DNA of 64,000 nucleotides from Dokdonella sp. (lineage in GTDB: Bacteria; Pseudomonadota; Gammaproteobacteria; Xanthomonadales; Rhodanobacteraceae), in contig JADJQH010000002.1 in NCBI GenBank assembly GCA_016712865.1, forward strand, positions 558,001 to 622,000, in the 5' to 3' direction. A model generated the notes under the pieces. The model ran no database searches, was not told where the DNA came from, and saw only the letters and a program-made list of their open reading frames with translations. Position numbers and translations under genes: made by a program. Of the stretch, positions 21,415 to 29,535 are shown in pieces (position 1 is the stretch's first letter; every line of letters begins with the position of its first letter).

Positions 21415-22704
21415 TCATTGTTGTGTCAGACGCTTGCGCAACTCCTGCAAGCCCAGGTCGCAGCCAGCGCCTGGGGATGTGCGTGCCGCCAGGCTGGACT
21501 CGGGCGTACGCCCGGCTCCTGCGGAACCGGTCGAATCGGCCGCGGCACGATAGGCCTCGCGGAACGGCATTCCGGCAATGGCCGCCTCGATGGCGACATC
21601 GGTGGCATGCATGGCCGGTTCGATGGCCTTGCGCATGGCATCCGCGTTCCATTCCATGCCTGCGAGCAAATCGGGCAATAGCTCCAACGCGGCAAGTCCG
21701 CGATGGAAGCCGTGCACGATGGCGCCCTTGCTGACCTGCAGATCCCGTTGGTAGCCGCTGGGCAGGGACAGCAGTTGTTCGATTTCCGTGCGCGCGGCGG
21801 CAACGCTGGCATAGCTGGCCCGCATCAGTTCGATCACATCGGGATTGCGCTTGTTGGGCATGATGGAACTGCCGGTGGTGAATACGCCGGGCAGATTCAC
21901 GAAGCCGTACTCGCTGGTCGTGAACAAGGACAAGTCCCAGGCCAGACGGCGCAAGTCGAGAACGGCGGCGGCCAGCGCCTCCAAGGCTGCCATTTCAAAC
22001 TTGCCGCGCGAAAGCTGGGCGTAGATTGGACTCACCTGCATGCGGGCAAAGCCGAGGCGCTGCGTGGTGAACTCGCGGTCCAGCGCAAGATTGACTCCGA
22101 ATCCGGCTGCCGTTCCCAAGGGATTGGCATCGATCAGAGCCAGGGTCTGCTGCGCGCGCCAGGCATTGTCGACAAAGGACTCGGCGATACCCGCAAACCA
22201 CATGGCGGTGGATGAAACCACTGCGCGTTGCAGATGCGTGTAGCCGGGCATCGGCCAGCATTCACGCTCGGCGCGTTCGATGCAGACGCGAGCCACGTTC
22301 CGGCAAATTTCGTGCAAGTCACGCAAGCGCTGCTTGAGCCACAGGCGAGTGGCCACCAGGATCTGGTCATTGCGGCTGCGTCCCGTGTGCACTTTTCCAC
22401 CCAGCGCACCCAGCCGATCAATCAGGCGAGCCTCAATGGCCGAGTGGCCATCCTCGAAGCGCTCATCCAGCACGAAGGTGCCGGCGCCGAAGTCGGCGGC
22501 CAGCACATCCAGTTCACGCACAAGGGACTGACTTTCCTCGTCCGTCAGCAGGTTTATTCGCAGCAAGCCTTCGACATGGGCTTTGCTCGCCTCGATATCG
22601 TGCAGGAAGAATTCGCGATCCAGCAGCACGTCATCGCCGGCAAGAAACCGCATGACGCGCTGATCGCTCTGCACGCCGGCCTTTTGCCAAAGCAGGTCGC
22701 TCAT
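21415..22704 (-). CDS. argH: Argininosuccinate lyase
   Basis: 429 residues. Fumarase/aspartase superfamily signature [12 protein letters not shown] is present together with GRSRNDQ and [11 protein letters not shown], both standard in ArgH. It splits argininosuccinate to arginine and fumarate, the last step of arginine synthesis. ATG at 22704 overlaps the argC stop by 4 bp (ATGA); an upstream in-frame extension overlapping argC is rejected. Last gene of the arginine operon; the Gly/Ser/Ala-rich stretch before the C terminus ([15 protein letters not shown]) is unusual but does not interrupt the fold. It is slightly shorter than the usual 450-460 residues. Confidence 0.94.
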
Positions 22705-23660
22705 GGCTGTTCCCTCGTGGGTATGCCGCTGGTTTCCCCGAAACCCAGCGCAAGATTGATGTTCTGCATGGCCTGGGTTGCCGCGCCCTTGAGCAGATTG
22801 TCCAGGCACGCCACCACGACCACGCGCCGACCGCCGGGAGCCAGTGCAAATCCGCCAATTTGGACTCCATGCGTTCCGGCCACCCGACTGACCCAGGGCG
22901 CGTCCTCGGTGATCTCGACCAGGGCTTCGTCGCCATATCTGCCGAGGTAGCGGTTGCGGATTTCTTCCACGCTCATGGATCGTTGCAACCACAGGTTCAC
23001 GGTCATAGTGATGCCGCGAAAGTGCGAGGCCACATGCGGCATGAACTCCACCGGCACCCCCAATTGCCGCGACACCTCGCGCTCGTGCAGGTGATCGACC
23101 AGCGAGTACGGCATCAGGTTGTCGCGTAGTTTTTCCGGATCATTGCGCTCGGATGGCGCGGTGCCCGCCCCCGAGTACCCGGAAACACCGAAACACTGTG
23201 GCGGGCCGGCAAGTTCATCCAGCAGCGGAGCAATGGCCAATTGCATGGCGGTTGCATAGCAGCCTGGATTGCTGATCCTGCGTTCGCCCTTGTACCGCGC
23301 ACGCGTCAACTCCGGCAGCCCGTAGTACCAGCCCTCGCTGAAACGATGATCCGCCGACAGGTCAACGATCAGGGCTTCCGGCCGCTGCGACTGGATTGCT
23401 TGCACATACTCGGCGGACTTTCCATTGGGCAGGGCCAGCACCACCACATCGGCGGCCTTTCGCGCCACCGCCTCGGCATCCGCGCAGACGTAGCGCAGGG
23501 ATCCGGTGAATCCATCGACGTGATCCGATACCTGCTGCCCGTCGTGTTCGCGCGACGACACCAGGACCAGTTCGAGCGAGGAATGCGCATCGACCATGCG
23601 AATCAACTCGGCACCGGTATGCCCGCGTGCACCGATGATGGCAACGCTGTGCAGCGTCAT
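22701..23660 (-). CDS. argC: N-acetyl-gamma-glutamyl-phosphate reductase
   Basis: 319 residues. N-terminal Rossmann motif ([18 protein letters not shown]) for NADPH, catalytic cysteine in [13 protein letters not shown] and [13 protein letters not shown]. It reduces N-acetylglutamyl phosphate to the semialdehyde, third step of the acetylated route. ATG at 23660 overlaps the argAB stop (ATGA). Overlaps on both sides show a tightly packed operon. Confidence 0.94.
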
Positions 23661-24994
23661 GCCACCCGCTCCATCGCCGCGTTCAGGGTTGCGGGCTTGC
23701 TGGCACAGAACGCGACGCAACGTTCAATGTCGGCAAAGCCCTCGATGCCGTACCAGAACACGCGCCAGGGTTCGTGCTTGCAGCAGCCATCCGACTCGCC
23801 GTGATAAAAGGCGTTGACCGGATTGCCCAGGCGCGATCGCCAGTACAACTGCGGGGTCTCGGCGCGCATGACTTGCCAAACGGCACGGCCCAGGCCCTCA
23901 CCCTGGGCATCCTCCAGCACGGCAAATTTGTCCAGATAAGGGAGGCCGTCACCGTCCACGAGGATCAGCGCCGCACGATAGTTTTCGCTCACGTAGGCTC
24001 GCCGCAGGCTGGTGCGTTCGAAGTAGTCCTGCGCCAACACGCGCGAGAAGCTCGACTCGATCAGGCTGCGCAGGCGCGCAAGATCCAACTGCTCCCATTG
24101 GCTTGCCTGCAGCACGCGCTCGCCTCGCCGGATCAGCGTGCCTGAACCCTTGTGGGTAAACAGCTCCTTGGCCAGTTCCGCAGGACGCGTGATCGATACC
24201 GACGAAGTCAAGGGCAGCTCATCGAGCAGGTCCTTGATCTGTTCGATCTTCAGGCGCATGCCGGAATGCAGCCACGGTTGTGCGATCAGCCGCTCGTATT
24301 CGCTGGACAAGCTGATCGAATCGATCACCCTGCCCTCGCCATCCAGCAGACCCCCGGTGCCGGTGAGGAAGATGATCTTGTAGGGTTGCAGCACCTTGAC
24401 CAGTTCGTTGGCGGCAAAGTCCGCATTGATGTTGAGGATCTGGCCGTCCACGGTTTCGCCCATGCTCGCGATTACCGGAATCGATCCGGCCTGCAGGCTG
24501 GCTTCGATGGGTGCCAGGTTGACGCTGTTCACCTTGCCCACCAGACCCAGCGCAGCACGATCCACGTAGTCGGACTCGAAAACGCCAGCGGTGATGGAGG
24601 TTGCCCGTGTACCGCCTTCCTGCAGGGCCTCGACCAGCTTCAGGTTCTGCGTCTGCAACACGCGACGCACGATGCCGAGCGCCTGGGACGAAGTGACGCG
24701 CAAGCCGTCGATGGTCTGCTTCTCGATGCCCGCCGCTGCCAGCTCGTTGTCCAGTTGCGGCCCGGCGCCGTGAACGACGATCGGCGTGAGGCCCACGTCC
24801 TGCAGGAAGGCCAGCGAGGATGTCAGCGCCTCGAGGTCATCGCGCAGCACCGCGCCTCCCACCTTGACCACCGCGAACCGCTTGGCATCCAGTTGCGAGA
24901 AACGCTTGAGGTACTGGTTGATCTCCTTGGCGCTGGCCATGCTGGAGAGCAGCCGCACGATGGTTTGCCGGGTCTGCCGGATTGCACTATTCAT
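23657..24994 (-). CDS. argB: Bifunctional N-acetylglutamate synthase/kinase
   Basis: 445 residues from ATG 24994. The N-terminal two-thirds is an amino acid kinase ([40 protein letters not shown]); the C-terminal third is a GNAT acetyltransferase of the vertebrate-like NAT type ([59 protein letters not shown]). This is the fused NAGS/K known from Xanthomonas, which both acetylates glutamate and phosphorylates the product; it is normally feedback-inhibited by arginine. The start just upstream, within argE', is supported by the overlap geometry. Confidence 0.92.
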
Positions 24995-26078
24995 GGATGA
25001 TTCCCCGCACCGATTCCGCATAGGTTTGAAGCTGCTGCAAGCTCACCCATTCATCCGCTGCATGCGCCTGGCGGATGTCTCCCGGCCCGTAGACCATCGC
25101 GCAATAGCCCGCCTGCGAGAAAAGCGAGGCTTCAGTCCAGAAATCCACCGCATTGCCGATCGGCAGGTTCAGCGCGTCTGCCATGTCGCGCGCTGCCAGG
25201 CGACGCGATTCCGCTTGTGCGACGTCGCCCGCAGGCAGGCTGGGGCCGCGGAAAGTCTCCATGAACCCGGCTGCTGCGGGCTCGGCGAAGGAACGGAAGG
25301 TGTGCAGCAGTGCGTCCACATCGGTAGAGGGCAGCGGCCGAAACCCGAAGCGCAGCTCCGCGTCCGGAGCGATCACGTTGGCCTTGATGCCGCCTTCGAT
25401 GCGACCGATGTTGAAGCGCAAGCCCGTCAAGCCGCCAAAGCGCTCATGCGCGCAGCGCTCGACGTGCGCCAGCGCCTTTTCGCCCCAGCGGATGACCTGG
25501 TGCAGCGCGCTGTCGGCTGGCGTCTGCTCAGCCGAAGCGTGTCCGGCCTGTCCGGAAAATTGCATCTGCACCGAGCAGATGCCGCGATGGGCAAGCACCG
25601 CCTCGCAGCGCGTGGGTTCCGCGACCATCACAGCCTCGAACGGCAGCTCGCGCGCAAGAAACGCGGAGATGCAGCGTGCGTCGTTGGCTTCCTCGTCGGA
25701 GCTGAACAGGAATGCCGCATCGCCATTGCCGGCATTGGCCACGGCCAGCAAGGCCGCGGCTGCGCCCTTGATATCGCAGGCCCCCAATCCGATGGCGCGA
25801 TCCCCGGTCACCCGCAACTCGAATGGACTGGCACTCCAGTGCGGCGAGTCCGGCACCGTGTCCACATGCACATTGAACAAGGTTTTCGGATTGCCACGTC
25901 GGGCATACAGGCTGACCGCCCCGGCACCATGATCGACCAGATCCAGCTCGAAACCGGGCAGATGGCCACACAGATAAGCAAAGATGCCATCGGCGCCGAT
26001 GTGGCGCGGTGGATTGCGCGTATCGAACGCGACCAGCGCGCGCAGATGTTCAAGGGTTGCCCGCAACAGTTCGCTCAC
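24987..26078 (-). CDS. argE: N-acetylcitrulline/acetylornithine deacetylase (M20 family)
   Basis: 363 residues from a GTG at 26078 that overlaps the argG stop as GTGA. Metal and catalytic residues of M20 are visible: [30 protein letters not shown]. In Xanthomonas-type clusters the enzyme at this position removes acetate from N-acetylcitrulline made by the neighbouring transcarbamylase, which is the most likely substrate here. An earlier in-frame ATG at 26108 would give 373 residues but buries 34 bases in argG. Confidence 0.88.
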
Positions 26079-27322
26079 TGCGCCTGCTCCCGATTGACCT
26101 GCGCCCACAGCGTGGAGCTCATGCCGTACAGGCGGATGAATCCTTCCGCTTCCTGCACTCCCCAGTCGGCAGACTGTGCATAGGTCGCACCTTTCGCATT
26201 GAGGATGTGTGCCGATTGCACGGCCGTTGCGTGCACGCTTCCTCCCTGCGTTTCCAGGGTGACCTCGCCATTGACCTGGCTCTGGCTGGCAGCGAGGAAG
26301 GCTTCCAGATCCCGCTTCAGCGGGTCATGGAAGAAGCCTTCATAAACCAGCTCAACCCATTGCCTGGCGACCAGCGGTTTGAAGCGGTTCTGCGCCTTGG
26401 ACAGCACGGCTTCCTCCAGCGCGCGGTGCGCAACCAGCAGCGCAGTTAGACCCGGCGCCTCGAATACGATGCGCCCCTTGAGCCCTATTGTTGTGTCCCC
26501 GGTGTAGATGCCGCGGCCCACACCGTAGGCGGCAAACAGGGTGTTCAAGCGCGCCAGCAGGACATGCCCAGGCAAGGCTTCACCGTTGAGTGTCCTGGCT
26601 TCACCTTGCTCGAATCCGATGGTCACCACCATTTTCGAGTTCGGCCACTCGGCGCGCGGAGCGCACCAGCCGCGCGCACCCTCGCCCGGTTCCTGCCAAC
26701 GGTCGATCTCGCCTCCGGACATGGTGAGACCGAGCAGGTTTTCGTTGATGGTGTAGGCCTTCTGCTTGCTCCTCACGCTGAAACCTCGGGCTTCCAGCCA
26801 GGCTTGCTCATAGGCGCGCACTTGCGCATGTTCTTTCTGGATCTCGCGGATCGGCGCGATGATTTCGTAGTCGCCGAGCGCCTTGACGGTCAGGTCGAAA
26901 CGCACCTGGTCGTTGCCCATGCCGGTACAGCCGTGCGCAATGGTGCGGGTTCCGATTTCGGCAGCGCGCTTCAAGGCCGCTTCCACGATCAGATAGCGAT
27001 CAGACACCAGCAGCGGATATTGGCCCTGGTAACCTTCACCCGCCCACACGAAGGGCTTGACGAAATTGCTCCAGATGGCTGGGCCACCATCGACCGTGAC
27101 ATGGCTGGAAGCACCCAGTTCCGCCGCGCGCTGCTCGATGTACTGGCGCTCCGCATCGTCCACGCCGCCGGTATCGGCAAAAACCGTGTGCACGTCATAT
27201 CCGCGCTCCTTGAGCCAGGGAATGCAAAAACTCGTGTCGAGCCCGCCCGAGAACGCAAGCACGATGTCTTTGGAGTCGGGAATGGGGAATGGGGAATCGG
27301 GAATCGAAGGAGCGCTGGCCAT
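26075..27322 (-). CDS. argG: Argininosuccinate synthase
   Basis: 415 residues. The ATP-pyrophosphatase loop [10 protein letters not shown] lies at about residues 23-32 and the citrulline/aspartate-binding regions ([33 protein letters not shown]) are normal. It joins citrulline and aspartate. The N terminus is odd: [17 protein letters not shown] precedes the usual [10 protein letters not shown] start and is encoded by a heptamer repeat arm. AGGA five bases before the ATG at 27322 supports that this extension is really translated. Confidence 0.94.
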
Positions 27323-27446
27323 GTGGTGTTCCTGCTCGTTGCAACAAGGTTGGCAATAGGTTGGTTGATATGGGGCACCGATGAATTAGTCGACGAGTAG
27401 CTTTTGCTTTTAAACCATTCTCGATTCCCCATTCCCGATTCCCGAA
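27278..27446. repeat. Heptamer-arm palindromic element A (argF'/argG junction)
   Basis: Left arm 27278-27306 consists of four 7-bp units of GGGAATG/GGGAATC; the right arm 27417-27446 carries the complementary ATTCCCC/ATTCCCG units. The arms can form a long hairpin. They encode the first residues of ArgG ([12 protein letters not shown]) and the last of ArgF' (GSGIGNGESRMV), so the element spans the whole junction. Confidence 0.8.
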
Positions 27447-28447
27447 CCAACCAGCGAAACCATCACGGCTTTCTGCACATGCAATCGATTTTCAGCTTCG
27501 TCGATGGCGATGCAGGCTTTGGAGTCCATCACGCCATCGGTCGCCTTGACGTTGCGTCGCAGCGGCAGGCAATGGCTGAACATGCCGTTGTTGGTCAGAG
27601 CCATCTTTGCTTCATCCACGATGAAGTGCTTGTGTGCATCACGAATGGGCTTTTCCTGATCCCAGCGCCCGAAGTAGGGAATCGCTCCCCAGCTTTTGGC
27701 ATAGATGACATCGGCACCACGGTAGGCCGCTTGCGGGTCGTGGCTGATGCTCAGGCTGCCGCCGTTGGCAGCGACGTTCTGGCGGGCGAAATCCATGTAG
27801 CGCGGATCAAGCAAATATTCGTCGGTGGGACACAGCAGGGTCACGTCCATGCCATAGCGGGTCGCAATCTGCAGCGCGGAATTGGCCACCGCGGTATTGA
27901 GCGGTTTCGGGTGATACGTCCAGGTCAACACGTACTTGCGACCCTTTAGATCGCCACCGAGATGCTGCTGCAGCGCCATGATGTGGGCGAGCTCCTGGCA
28001 CGGATGGGTAATCGTCTCCATGTTGATCACTGGCACCGTGGCAAATCGCGCGAACGCATTGATGACGCGGTCTTCGCGATCCACCGACCAGTCCTGGAAT
28101 TTCGGAAACGCGCGTACGCCGATCAGGTCGACATAGCGGCTGAGCACGCGTGCCACCTCGGCGATGTGTTCCTCGGCCTCGCCATCCATCACGCTGCCCA
28201 CGTCGAATTCGATAGGCCAGGCATCCTTGCCCGGAGCAAGCACGATGGCCTTGCCGCCAAGCTGATGGGCACCCAACTCGAAACTGGTGCGCGTGCGCAT
28301 GGAGGGATTGAAGAACAGCAGGGCAATCGACCTGCCTTGCAGCTCATTGCCAAGCCGGTTGGCACGAAACCGGCGCGCTTGCTCAAGCAGGCTATCCAGC
28401 TCCGGGCGGCTCCAGTCCTGTGTACCCAAGAAGTTTTTGTTGTTCAC
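27410..28447 (-). CDS. argF': N-acetylornithine carbamoyltransferase
   Basis: 345 residues from GTG 28447, which has AGGAG five bases upstream. Carbamoyl-phosphate loop SMRTRTSFELGAHQLGG, HPCQELAHIMAL and the C-terminal HCLPLRRNVKATDG are transcarbamylase hallmarks; the proline-rich, K-x-T-rich C-terminal pattern and 340-residue length fit AOTCase of Xanthomonas rather than ordinary OTCase. It makes N-acetylcitrulline. The frame is open for a further 104 codons upstream through three DNA repeats, but the ribosome site marks this GTG. The C-terminal GSGIGNGESRMV is repeat-encoded. Confidence 0.92.
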   Translation of the reverse strand: MNNKNFLGTQDWSRPELDSLLEQARRFRANRLGNELQGRSIALLFFNPSMRTRTSFELGAHQLGGKAIVLAPGKDAWPIEFDVGSVMDGEAEEHIAEVARVLSRYVDLIGVRAFPKFQDWSVDREDRVINAFARFATVPVINMETITHPCQELAHIMALQQHLGGDLKGRKYVLTWTYHPKPLNTAVANSALQIATRYGMDVTLLCPTDEYLLDPRYMDFARQNVAANGGSLSISHDPQAAYRGADVIYAKSWGAIPYFGRWDQEKPIRDAHKHFIVDEAKMALTNNGMFSHCLPLRRNVKATDGVMDSKACIAIDEAENRLHVQKAVMVSLVGSGIGNGESRMV

Positions 28448-28505
28448 GTGGTCTCCTGAAAAAAGCGCCTGCGCTGCTCCGGCTTCATCCCCCTCTCCCG
28501 GGTGA

Positions 28506-28748
28506 GGGTTGGGGTGAGGGTGGTGCATTCCTTCCATGGCGATCGCCTGCAATTGCTCCTGCCTCGTCCCCCTCTCCCGCTGGCGGAAAGGGTTGGGGTG
28601 AGGGTGGTGCATTCCTTCCATGGCGATCGCCTGCAATTGCTCCTGCCCATTCCCCCTCTCCCGCCAGCGTACCCAGAGGGCATAAAGGAGAGGGTTGGGG
28701 TGAGGGTGGTGCATTCCTTCCATGGCGATCGCCTGCAATTGCTCCTGC
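28506..28748 (-). repeat. Three 57-bp direct repeats upstream of argF'
   Basis: Copies at 28506-28562, 28590-28646 and 28692-28748 share the same 57 bp (GGGTTGGGGTGAGGGTGGTG... on the plus strand). Start-to-start distances are 84 and 102 bp, both multiples of three. The joining bases carry CCCTCTCCC-like REP sequence. All lie between the terminator and argF'. Not a CRISPR: too few units, uneven spacing and repeated spacers. Confidence 0.85.
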
Positions 28749-28778
28749 ATTGCAGGCATACACGCCGTCCATGGCGAT

Positions 28779-28807
28779 AAAAAAACCCGGCGCGATGGCC
28801 GGGTTTT
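28779..28807 (-). terminator. Intrinsic terminator/attenuator in the arg leader
   Basis: On the minus strand AAAACCCGGC-CATCGC-GCCGGGTTTT is followed by TTT, giving a 10-bp stem and seven T in a row. Its 5' arm ACCCGGCC (28804-28797) is also perfectly complementary to GGCCGGGT (28844-28837) at the end of the upstream short reading frame, so an antiterminator hairpin can form instead. It lies 330 bp before argF'. It could alternatively simply end the glycine-zipper transcript. Confidence 0.75.
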
Positions 28808-28834
28808 GTCGGTAAAAAAAATGATGCGCGACAG

Positions 28835-28939
28835 CTACCCGGCCCGGATTGGCTCCATCGGTCGGCGCGCACGCGACGTCATGCCGGCGGCAAGGCGGGC
28901 ACTGCTCAAGACAATCACGGTGGCATGGATCGCGTTCAT
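28835..28939 (-). CDS. Candidate arginine leader peptide
   Basis: A 34-codon frame, ATG 28939 to TAG 28835. It starts MNAIHATVIVL and ends TSRARRPMEPIRAG; five Arg codons, three of them within four codons at positions 23-26. The stop codon overlaps the sequence that can block the downstream terminator, the geometry expected for ribosome-mediated attenuation. No good Shine-Dalgarno is seen before the ATG, and the arginine content is only moderately above what high GC gives by chance, so translation is a hypothesis. Confidence 0.45.
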   Translation of the reverse strand: MNAIHATVIVLSSARLAAGMTSRARRPMEPIRAG

Positions 28940-28992
28940 TGAGGCGTGGACGTTACCGGCATTCGGGATTCAACGCAACCGCTTGCGTCGGG

Positions 28993-29535
28993 CTATTCGG
29001 CGGGGGAAACGCTGACACGCACGCGCATGCGTTCGCCCGGGTCGTAGTCCAGATGCGACATGAACACATCGCCCCGATACCGGTACTGCACGTCATAGCC
29101 GGCAATCCGTCGCTCATTGTAAGGCTCGTAGACAGTGCGGCATCGCGTCTGCGGCTCGGAGTAGTAGTAATCATCGCGCCGCGCGGAATCGTTGCCGATT
29201 GCGCCGCCGATCACGGCTCCGGCAATCGTGGCCGCCTTGCGGCCATCGCCCTTGCCAACCTGGTTGCCCAATGCGCCACCAATGATCGCGCCAATCACGG
29301 TACCGGCACCATTGTTGCCACGACTGTCGCGACGCTCGACTTCGGTGTCGTAGCACTCCTCGCGCGACCGGCTTGATTGCACTTCCTCGTAGACCGGATC
29401 GACACTCAGCACATCGGCCCAATCCATGCGCACGTTGTCGGAATCGCGTTGGTCCCAGCCACGATCCTGGGCGGTTGCACCGGCTGTCGCAAAACCCGAT
29501 GCGACGAGTACGGCGAGCATGCAAGTCTTGAACAT
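28993..29535 (-). CDS. Glycine-zipper 2TM domain protein, exported
   Basis: 180 residues. A signal peptide (MFKTCMLAVLVASGFATAGATA) is followed by a charged region, and from about residue 80 the glycine-zipper pair GAGTVIGAIIGGALGNQVG and AATIAGAVIGGAIGND, typical of the 2TM (Rickettsia 17 kDa antigen-like) outer-membrane-associated family. A cysteine-containing, tyrosine-rich tail (RRDDYYYSEPQTRCRTVYEPYNERRIAGYDVQYRY) matches relatives in Xanthomonadales. Family members bind or stiffen the envelope; the function is otherwise unknown. Divergent from cysS. A GC-rich hairpin CCCGGCGG-CTTT-CCGCCGGG lies upstream at 29566-29585. Confidence 0.82.
   Translation of the reverse strand: MFKTCMLAVLVASGFATAGATAQDRGWDQRDSDNVRMDWADVLSVDPVYEEVQSSRSREECYDTEVERRDSRGNNGAGTVIGAIIGGALGNQVGKGDGRKAATIAGAVIGGAIGNDSARRDDYYYSEPQTRCRTVYEPYNERRIAGYDVQYRYRGDVFMSHLDYDPGERMRVRVSVSPAE

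Follow-up and report, generated by a model that had tools for sequence, protein, structure and literature searches.

How is arginine biosynthesis controlled at a locus where a short, arginine-bearing reading frame and a terminator stand in front of the arg genes? Repression by ArgR is the textbook mode of arginine control in gammaproteobacteria. In the window, by which we mean the whole 64,000-nucleotide stretch of Dokdonella DNA that was analysed, the original prediction had read these elements as an attenuator of the trp/his/leu type which responds to arginine. According to our analysis this reading is supported by conservation, covariation and spacing, and by the fact that no ArgR was found in 140 of 147 genomes. 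Taking in account also the anatomy of the leader and its codon choice, we consider it highly probable that the leader is a ribosome-mediated transcription attenuator for arginine, controlling the argF'GE'BCH operon.

The arg operon and its leader

The genes of the operon and the family models that identify them are as follows.

27410-28447, minus strand: argF' (N-acetylornithine carbamoyltransferase), GTG start at 28447; NF003384, 595 bits against a cut-off of 288
26075-27322, minus strand: argG (argininosuccinate synthase); NF003385, 750 bits against a cut-off of 603
24987-26108, minus strand: argE' (acetylornithine deacetylase); NF006439, 618 bits against a cut-off of 345
23657-25021, minus strand: argB-type acetylglutamate kinase (454 aa); NF003386, 798 bits against a cut-off of 417
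22701-23720, minus strand: argC; TIGR01850, 323 bits against a cut-off of 233.6
21415-22992, minus strand: argH; TIGR00838, 276 bits, slightly below the cut-off of 279.5

The true start of argH probably lies further inside the listed ORF. The whole leader region (28779-28941, minus strand) precedes these six genes, and the gap of about 330 bp between the terminator and argF' is mostly filled by a dispersed repeat. Positions 28450-28770 (minus strand) hold approximately three head-to-tail copies of this GC-rich element, similar copies occur at the same place in the relative L012, and of 77 matches obtained in a search of the genome itself 76 lay on this part of the query. Upstream of the leader lies a gene for a glycine-zipper protein (NF008437; 28993-29535, minus strand), which is present in 92 of 130 loci and has no evident link to arginine. 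Regions upstream of carA and argS in the same genome show, by eye, no obvious Arg-rich leader; upstream of this carA (L259) a GC-rich stretch is followed by GGGTTTTG, which could be a weak hairpin.

The leader itself consists of the following features, given in the direction of transcription.

28973-28978, minus strand: predicted -35 element TTGCGT (promoter-pattern comparison)
28950-28955, minus strand: predicted -10 element TAACGT, 17 nt from the -35 element and 10 nt before the AUG (promoter-pattern comparison)
28941, minus strand: predicted transcription start, leaving a 2-nt 5' UTR (homology to Rfam Xoo5)
28835-28939, minus strand: leader ORF of 34 codons plus TAG, MNAIHATVIVLSSARLAAGMTSRARRPMEPIRAG (ORF and translation, relatives)
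28859-28906, minus strand: conserved peptide block SSARLAAGMTSRARRP, codons -8 to +7 (pN/pS 0.28; MTSRARR in 105 of 105 loci)
28862-28864, minus strand: near-invariant CGA codon, third Arg of R-A-R-R and predicted main stall codon (CGA in 103 of 105 loci)
28837-28844, minus strand: segment 2 GGCCGGGT, 5' strand of the antiterminator, overlapping the leader stop codon (complementarity and covariation)
28829-28833, minus strand: inner antiterminator strand TGTCG (comparison of the best inner stem of the loci)
28807-28811, minus strand: inner antiterminator strand CGACA (inner-stem comparison and folds)
28797-28804, minus strand: segment 3 ACCCGGCC, 5' arm of the terminator, pairing with segment 2 or 4 (complementarity and covariation)
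28779-28791, minus strand: segment 4 GCCGGGT plus T tract, 3' arm of the terminator (complementarity and covariation)

Re-reading of the window confirmed the elements from which the original prediction had started, with their coordinates and sequences. The 34-codon frame carries the cluster R-A-R-R, and its TAG (28837-28835) overlaps GGCCGGGT (28844-28837), whose exact complement ACCCGGCC (28804-28797) is contained in the arm of the terminator, a stem ACCCGGC/GCCGGGT followed by seven T (28807-28779). The two weak points noted at that time are real as well: there is no clear Shine-Dalgarno sequence, and only five of the 34 codons are Arg, as holds for this clade, longer Arg runs being found in several of the deeper families. 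A generic promoter and terminator scan of the window detected neither element at the leader, and an Rfam scan of the window at the gathering score returned a tRNA as its sole match. When the 206-nt region was folded whole, its stability was not above that of shuffles (z 1.28), so that the significance of the attenuator comes from comparison and not from energy.

The predicted start of the RNA derives from relatives. The Rfam family RF02242 (Xoo5) matches the leader in eight of nine loci of family f2 (seven at 101-144 bits and one at 54; L082 gave no match), and in these relatives the first position of the model falls 2 nt before the leader AUG. None of 17 tested loci outside f2 reaches the cut-off of 50 bits, and the window's own leader scores 21.7 bits against this gathering cut-off. 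In the available part of its original description, Xoo5 is a 124-nt RNA (cDNA) of Xanthomonas oryzae with a 5' end placed by RACE and growth-phase-dependent Northern bands of about 130 and 100 nt, presented as an sRNA (Liang et al. 2011, PMC3039613). This source, together with Rfam, indicates that a discrete short RNA with a matching 5' end exists in a relative; its main text contains no occurrence of arginine, argF, ornithine or leader. Judging by the Xanthomonas loci L155, L175 and L187 rather than by annotation, the gene adjoining Xoo5 in X. oryzae, PXO_00353, appears to be argF'. Up to the end of the T tract the predicted leader RNA measures 156-159 nt in six Xanthomonas- or Stenotrophomonas-type loci; the Xoo5 bands are shorter, and the 3' end may be processed or the RNA may not be simply the terminated product. 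It would be logical to suggest that translation of the leader is probably leaderless, and the lack of a Shine-Dalgarno sequence would be explained by such an mRNA, given the predicted 5' UTR and the Xoo5 start. A TTG-type hexamer followed after 16-18 nt by a second hexamer, the pair closely preceding the leader start, was found in 35 of 105 loci, against a mean of 3.5 and a maximum of 7 in 50 base shuffles; the other 70 loci do not fit this pattern. A similar promoter arrangement is seen by eye in the Xanthomonas-type locus L068.

Conservation, covariation and the distribution of ArgR

The alignment of regions upstream of argF', which had been proposed as a check of the prediction, was run on 130 genomes of the order, and the frame, the Arg cluster, the spacing and the 2:3 and 3:4 pairings all proved conserved, with three-way covariation. 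A search for the argF' protein through 147 genomes around that of the window gave a match in 144, in some of them a distant one; the 130 upstream regions compared, 105 from families f1-f4 and 25 from the deeper families f5-f11, were picked by argF' and not by the motif. An Arg-clustered leader together with a terminator was found, by automatic detection and by eye, in 126 of the 130. A short frame with MTSRARR occurs in all 105 regions of f1-f4 (97 fit the strict pattern, and the other eight lack the Pro that follows), and an intrinsic terminator follows this leader in 101 of them by automatic detection, the other four having a hairpin recognised by eye, two of these with a T-poor tail. The distance from the start codon to the core is 19 codons in 62 of 76 measurable relatives.

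The deeper families present the same arrangement with another peptide. In f5-f11, 21 of 25 regions have a different short frame with Arg clusters before a terminator, the richest clusters being RRRRR or RRNRRR and the poorest a bare RR with one more Arg close by; the argF' regions L121 (f6) and L128, L131 and L132 (f10) have no leader or terminator. Among the 21 deeper regions whose terminator passed the strict test, a set that takes in L132 (not counted as a leader) and leaves out L133, the best window of six codons holds on average 3.86 Arg, against 1.14 in dinucleotide shuffles. Tested singly, 13 of the 21 reach p 0.05, and L113, L114, L116, L118, L119, L120, L123 and L132 do not. Since six of the eight f8 leaders have clusters that are not significant alone, the case for a leader in this family rests on the terminator and on the joint pattern.

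A scan of named genomes with the motif pattern gave at least 80 loci, whose titles bear the names of genera that we take to belong to Lysobacterales; the other titles listed are unclassified Lysobacterales, Proteobacteria or Gammaproteobacteria MAGs and one [Pseudomonas] boreopolis. In 77 of the 80 listed loci argF' follows within 1.5 kb on the same strand, and the remaining three sequences end 23, 56 and 174 nt past the motif, so that argF' is found in all loci with enough DNA. Of 398 genomes of the order, 255 contain a similar motif pattern, and the reversed control pattern matched nowhere among the genomes listed. Among these, the exact pattern is absent from eight f2 and three f4 genomes, two pattern-negative genomes (G146 and G020) having a leader with Ser in place of Gly, and none of the listed f5-f12 genomes matched. 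In the window's own genome the core occurs once with one mismatch allowed. Three leader peptides gave no match to NCBIfam and Pfam at E up to 1, and one gave none to PDB at E up to 5.

The pairing between segments 2 and 3 is conserved together with the frame. When it is taken at a constant distance from the core, segment 2 can form at least 6 consecutive Watson-Crick pairs with the terminator arm in 90 of 101 loci, the latter being the argF'-ascertained f1-f4 loci with an automatically found terminator. By family it is found in 79 of 85 loci of f1, 8 of 9 of f2 and 3 of 3 of f3; the 11 loci with a shorter complement include all four tested of f4. The same complement is seen in 61 of 75 motif-ascertained named loci, and 0.58% of control 8-mers taken from the same leaders (n=13,364) reach it. 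At the variable position, segments 2-3-4 read C-G-C in 97 rows, T-A-T in 53 and T-G-C in two (152 of 185 rows hold the patterns); all 152 are still pairable, because 150 covary three-way and the two T-G-C rows can pair by G-U. A set of 41 diverse rows contains 22 cells in which both partners have changed, a number that none of 500 shuffles reaches; the number of pairs with a double change (two) is not exceptional, being reached by 231 of 500 shuffles, and five of the eight pairs are invariant and so uninformative, partly since the rows were picked by the pattern. Sliding of the partners in these 41 rows destroys the 2/3/4 pairing.

An inner stem (T)GTCG:CGAC(A) is the best one in 92 of 152 loci, and CGGA:TCCG in 14; compared with shuffles the excess is modest, with a mean of 4.2 against 3.6 and a length of at least 5 in 31% against 12%. 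When the segment 2-to-3 stretch is folded alone, all 84 loci show the 2:3 pairing, an outcome to which the choice of this stretch itself contributes. The search for a 1:2 pause hairpin yielded none that is conserved, the upstream pairing of segment 2 being diffuse in 76 leaders. In the loci L154, L170, L180, L193, L197 and L198 the spacer from segment 2 to the terminator exceeds 40 nt and the inner stem differs; these may represent a further variant of the antiterminator.

In 81 of the 86 f1-f4 loci with the segment pattern, 21 nt separate the last Arg codon from segment 2. Among 21 deeper leaders this distance is 9-21 nt in 13, segment 2 not being found in the other eight, and in the same 13 segment 2 lies 6-21 nt before the stop codon; its position relative to the Arg codons is thus no less constant than that relative to the stop. 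With usual footprint sizes, segment 2 would at this spacing stay uncovered while a ribosome occupies the control codons, and would be covered by one that has reached the stop codon.

From the anatomy of the leader we propose the following course of events. RNA polymerase would start about 2 nt before the leader AUG, and a ribosome would load on the leaderless leader. When charged tRNA-Arg is short, it would stall within the R-A-R-R cluster, the codon in the A site being most likely CGA. A ribosome usually covers about 15 nt between its P-site codon and its front edge. The stalled ribosome would stop about 7 nt short of segment 2, which would then be free to pair with segment 3, perhaps helped by the inner TGTCG:CGACA stem; with 2:3 paired the terminator could not form and the operon would be read. 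When arginine is plentiful, the ribosome would reach the stop codon and cover segment 2, the 3:4 terminator would form, and a leader RNA of about 163 nt would be released. Inferred in this scheme are the geometry of the footprint, the direction in which the system responds and the charging of tRNA-Arg as its signal.

The DNA-binding domain of ArgR was found in seven of the 147 genomes, all of family f12, and was not found in the others, the window's own included; the search controls detected it in nine of 14 genomes, E. coli among them, eight of the nine above the cut-off. Seven of eight tested f12 genomes have ArgR, the eighth being 77% complete. In these genomes argF has no more than a distant homologue (38-42% identity), no motif occurs among those listed, and ArgR and the attenuator were thus seen together in no sampled genome. 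In the genomes of L121, L128, L131 and L132, which have no leader, ArgR was not found either, so that a few genomes show neither control.

The peptide block and rival explanations

In four families selection bears on the peptide sequence itself, beyond its Arg codons, with an RNA constraint possible for a part of it. Codons -8 to +7 have a pN/pS of 0.28 in the 105 argF'-ascertained loci, compared with 0.99 for the preceding codons -14 to -9 and 1.04 for the following codons +8 to +12 (93 loci without a stop); the value for codons -8 to -1, which no pattern fixed in these loci, is 0.47. All 105 loci have Ala -6 and Ala -3, and 103 have Gly -1. Third bases vary at codons -3, -2, -1, 1, 3 and 4 and are nearly fixed at codons -6, 2 and 6. 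In a hairpin formed in frame by codons -8 to -1, 86% of the cells are paired, against at most 43% when slid, with a mean of 7.3 pairs of eight in f1, 6.7 in f3, 5.4 in f4 and 5.0 in f2. We considered whether the block is only such a hairpin; it is good in f1 and poorer in f2, and is unlikely to be the whole story.

The choice of Arg codons is equally restricted. The last one is CGA in 103 of 105 loci and CGT in two, and the other two are CGT or CGC in 208 of 210 cases; the share of CGA among Arg codons is 2.8% in 29 argF' genes and 8.2% in eight genes of the window. In the clusters of the deeper families, L132 included, we counted 38 CGC, 24 CGA, 16 CGT and three AGA, with no CGG or AGG. CGU, CGC and CGA are decoded by one tRNA, with inosine. 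According to theory, in the accessible part of the source, the reader of a control codon must itself be sensitive to the amino acid supply (Elf and Ehrenberg 2005, PMC1183508), and the leader's use of codons read by a single tRNA fits this theory.

Against the attenuator it can be said that the three clustered Arg codons of f1-f4 are few for a classical one, and the rival that addresses this point keeps the RNA switch as it is and adds an action of the nascent chain, mostly [ST]-x-A-R-x-A-[AS]-G-M-T-S-R-A-R-R, in the exit tunnel. The chain would either slow the decoding of CGA, so that few Arg codons suffice, or sense arginine or a pathway intermediate directly. In length the selected block roughly equals the part of the chain that occupies the upper exit tunnel. 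It ends at the predicted stall codon, it is constrained where both its flanks have pN/pS near 1, and the variable third bases named above speak against a pure RNA constraint; a precedent is orf34 of Salmonella speF, a conserved leader peptide in which an RR pair reads arginine, as far as the available text tells (PMC6386406). On the other side, the in-frame hairpin means that part of the constraint may be at the RNA level, to which the nearly fixed third bases of codons -6, 2 and 6 also point. We would credit this peptide-assisted action almost as readily as we would doubt it, and regard any active part of the nascent peptide as quite conceivable, with some leaning against it. With the same reserve we may tentatively suggest that the f1-f4 leader is a hybrid sensor: a fixed nascent peptide would hold the ribosome at the slow CGA, the three Arg codons and possibly tunnel-bound arginine or a precursor such as N-acetylornithine would control the operon, and the deeper families would keep the plain Arg-cluster form.

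Other explanations dispense with attenuation or make it secondary. The worry that the terminator merely ends the upstream glycine-zipper gene, the frame being there by chance, had been raised with the prediction itself; that gene stops at 28993, and by eye no other terminator is seen down to 28807. Our comparison does not support this worry, since the leader is kept in 14 of 105 f1-f4 loci without the glycine-zipper gene in the fetched DNA, and f5 and f7-f11 have leaders and terminators with this gene found in none of 24 loci. Moreover, the sole f6 locus has the gene and yet no terminator, several relatives show by eye a separate hairpin after it, and selection at the peptide level would not be expected of a chance frame; we give this explanation next to no weight. 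A leader RNA (Xoo5) or peptide acting in trans, with attenuation as a by-product or a second function, appears rather unlikely to us. Its description as an sRNA with bands that change with growth phase favours it (available part of PMC3039613), as does peTrpL of Sinorhizobium, a leader peptide that is reported to function in trans. The same source leaves Xoo5 among the likely Hfq-independent RNAs and reports seven of eight sRNA deletions, among which that of Xoo5 may be included, without obvious phenotype; argF' follows in all 77 listed motif loci with enough DNA, and the peptide varies freely towards both its N and its C terminus, all of which speaks against an action in trans. A discrete leader with alternative hairpins would also fit an arginine-binding riboswitch or a protein-binding leader. 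What is conserved outside the antiterminator and terminator is, however, a coding frame with synonymous change, and the Rfam scan of the window gave, at the gathering score, nothing other than the tRNA, which leaves these two readings very improbable.

Meaning and known systems

The ribosome-sensing attenuator offers a possible answer to how arginine synthesis is controlled in the order that includes Xanthomonas and Stenotrophomonas, where ArgR was found in one sampled family only, and it suggests what the RNA filed in Rfam as the sRNA Xoo5 may do. Vitreschak et al. 2004 is reportedly a key survey of attenuation in proteobacteria. Among the papers listed in our searches of open-access literature, judged by title or start of abstract, we found no earlier description of an arginine attenuator in this order, and as far as these searches show, our work adds arginine to the biosynthetic operons of Proteobacteria under classical attenuation. 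One order presents three states of the same control point, namely ArgR, an Arg-cluster attenuator and a fixed-peptide attenuator, which makes the evolution from a leader to an arrest peptide testable. If the hybrid-sensor reading is true, the order would show a stepwise change from a codon-counting attenuator to an arrest peptide where ArgR is not found.

Several known systems share features with the leader described here. The trp, his and leu attenuators of Enterobacteria likewise combine a leader ORF whose control codons specify the amino acid produced, 2:3 and 3:4 hairpins that exclude each other and a terminator with a U tract (in part after the available text of PMC1183508); the present leader differs in that it concerns arginine, has few control codons in f1-f4 and a conserved non-Arg peptide block, is probably carried by a leaderless mRNA and has no clear 1:2 pause hairpin. 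ArgR fulfils the same control task in other gammaproteobacteria, but as a protein repressor. Rfam Xoo5 is the same RNA as the leader in the f2 relatives, but it is filed as an sRNA, and the window's leader stays below the cut-off of that model.

The Salmonella orf34/speF leader also has a conserved 34-residue peptide with consecutive Arg codons, and the gene behind it is switched on by pausing when arginine is low; that gene is, however, an ornithine decarboxylase, the control works through Rho termination, RNase G decay and translation and not through an intrinsic-terminator switch, and the peptide is a different one, HIRRT...HIMM (PMC6386406, available part). In Staphylococcus aureus the leader ORF rbfL senses arginine limitation via Arg codons, but it represses translation by covering the ribosome binding site, uses AGA/AGG codons and precedes a regulator gene instead of a biosynthetic one (according to the accessible text of PMC13009471). 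The carAB leader of Pseudomonas belongs to a gene of the arginine and pyrimidine pathways and in P. aeruginosa contains a leader peptide with possible attenuation; there, attenuation is ascribed to pyrimidines and the arginine effect to the transcriptional level, and no Arg-codon switch is described in the available part of PMC4997734. The kind of mechanism that we propose is thus known, and what appears to be new is its use for arginine, a fixed peptide with a single slow codon, a probable leaderless start and a setting in which ArgR was not found.
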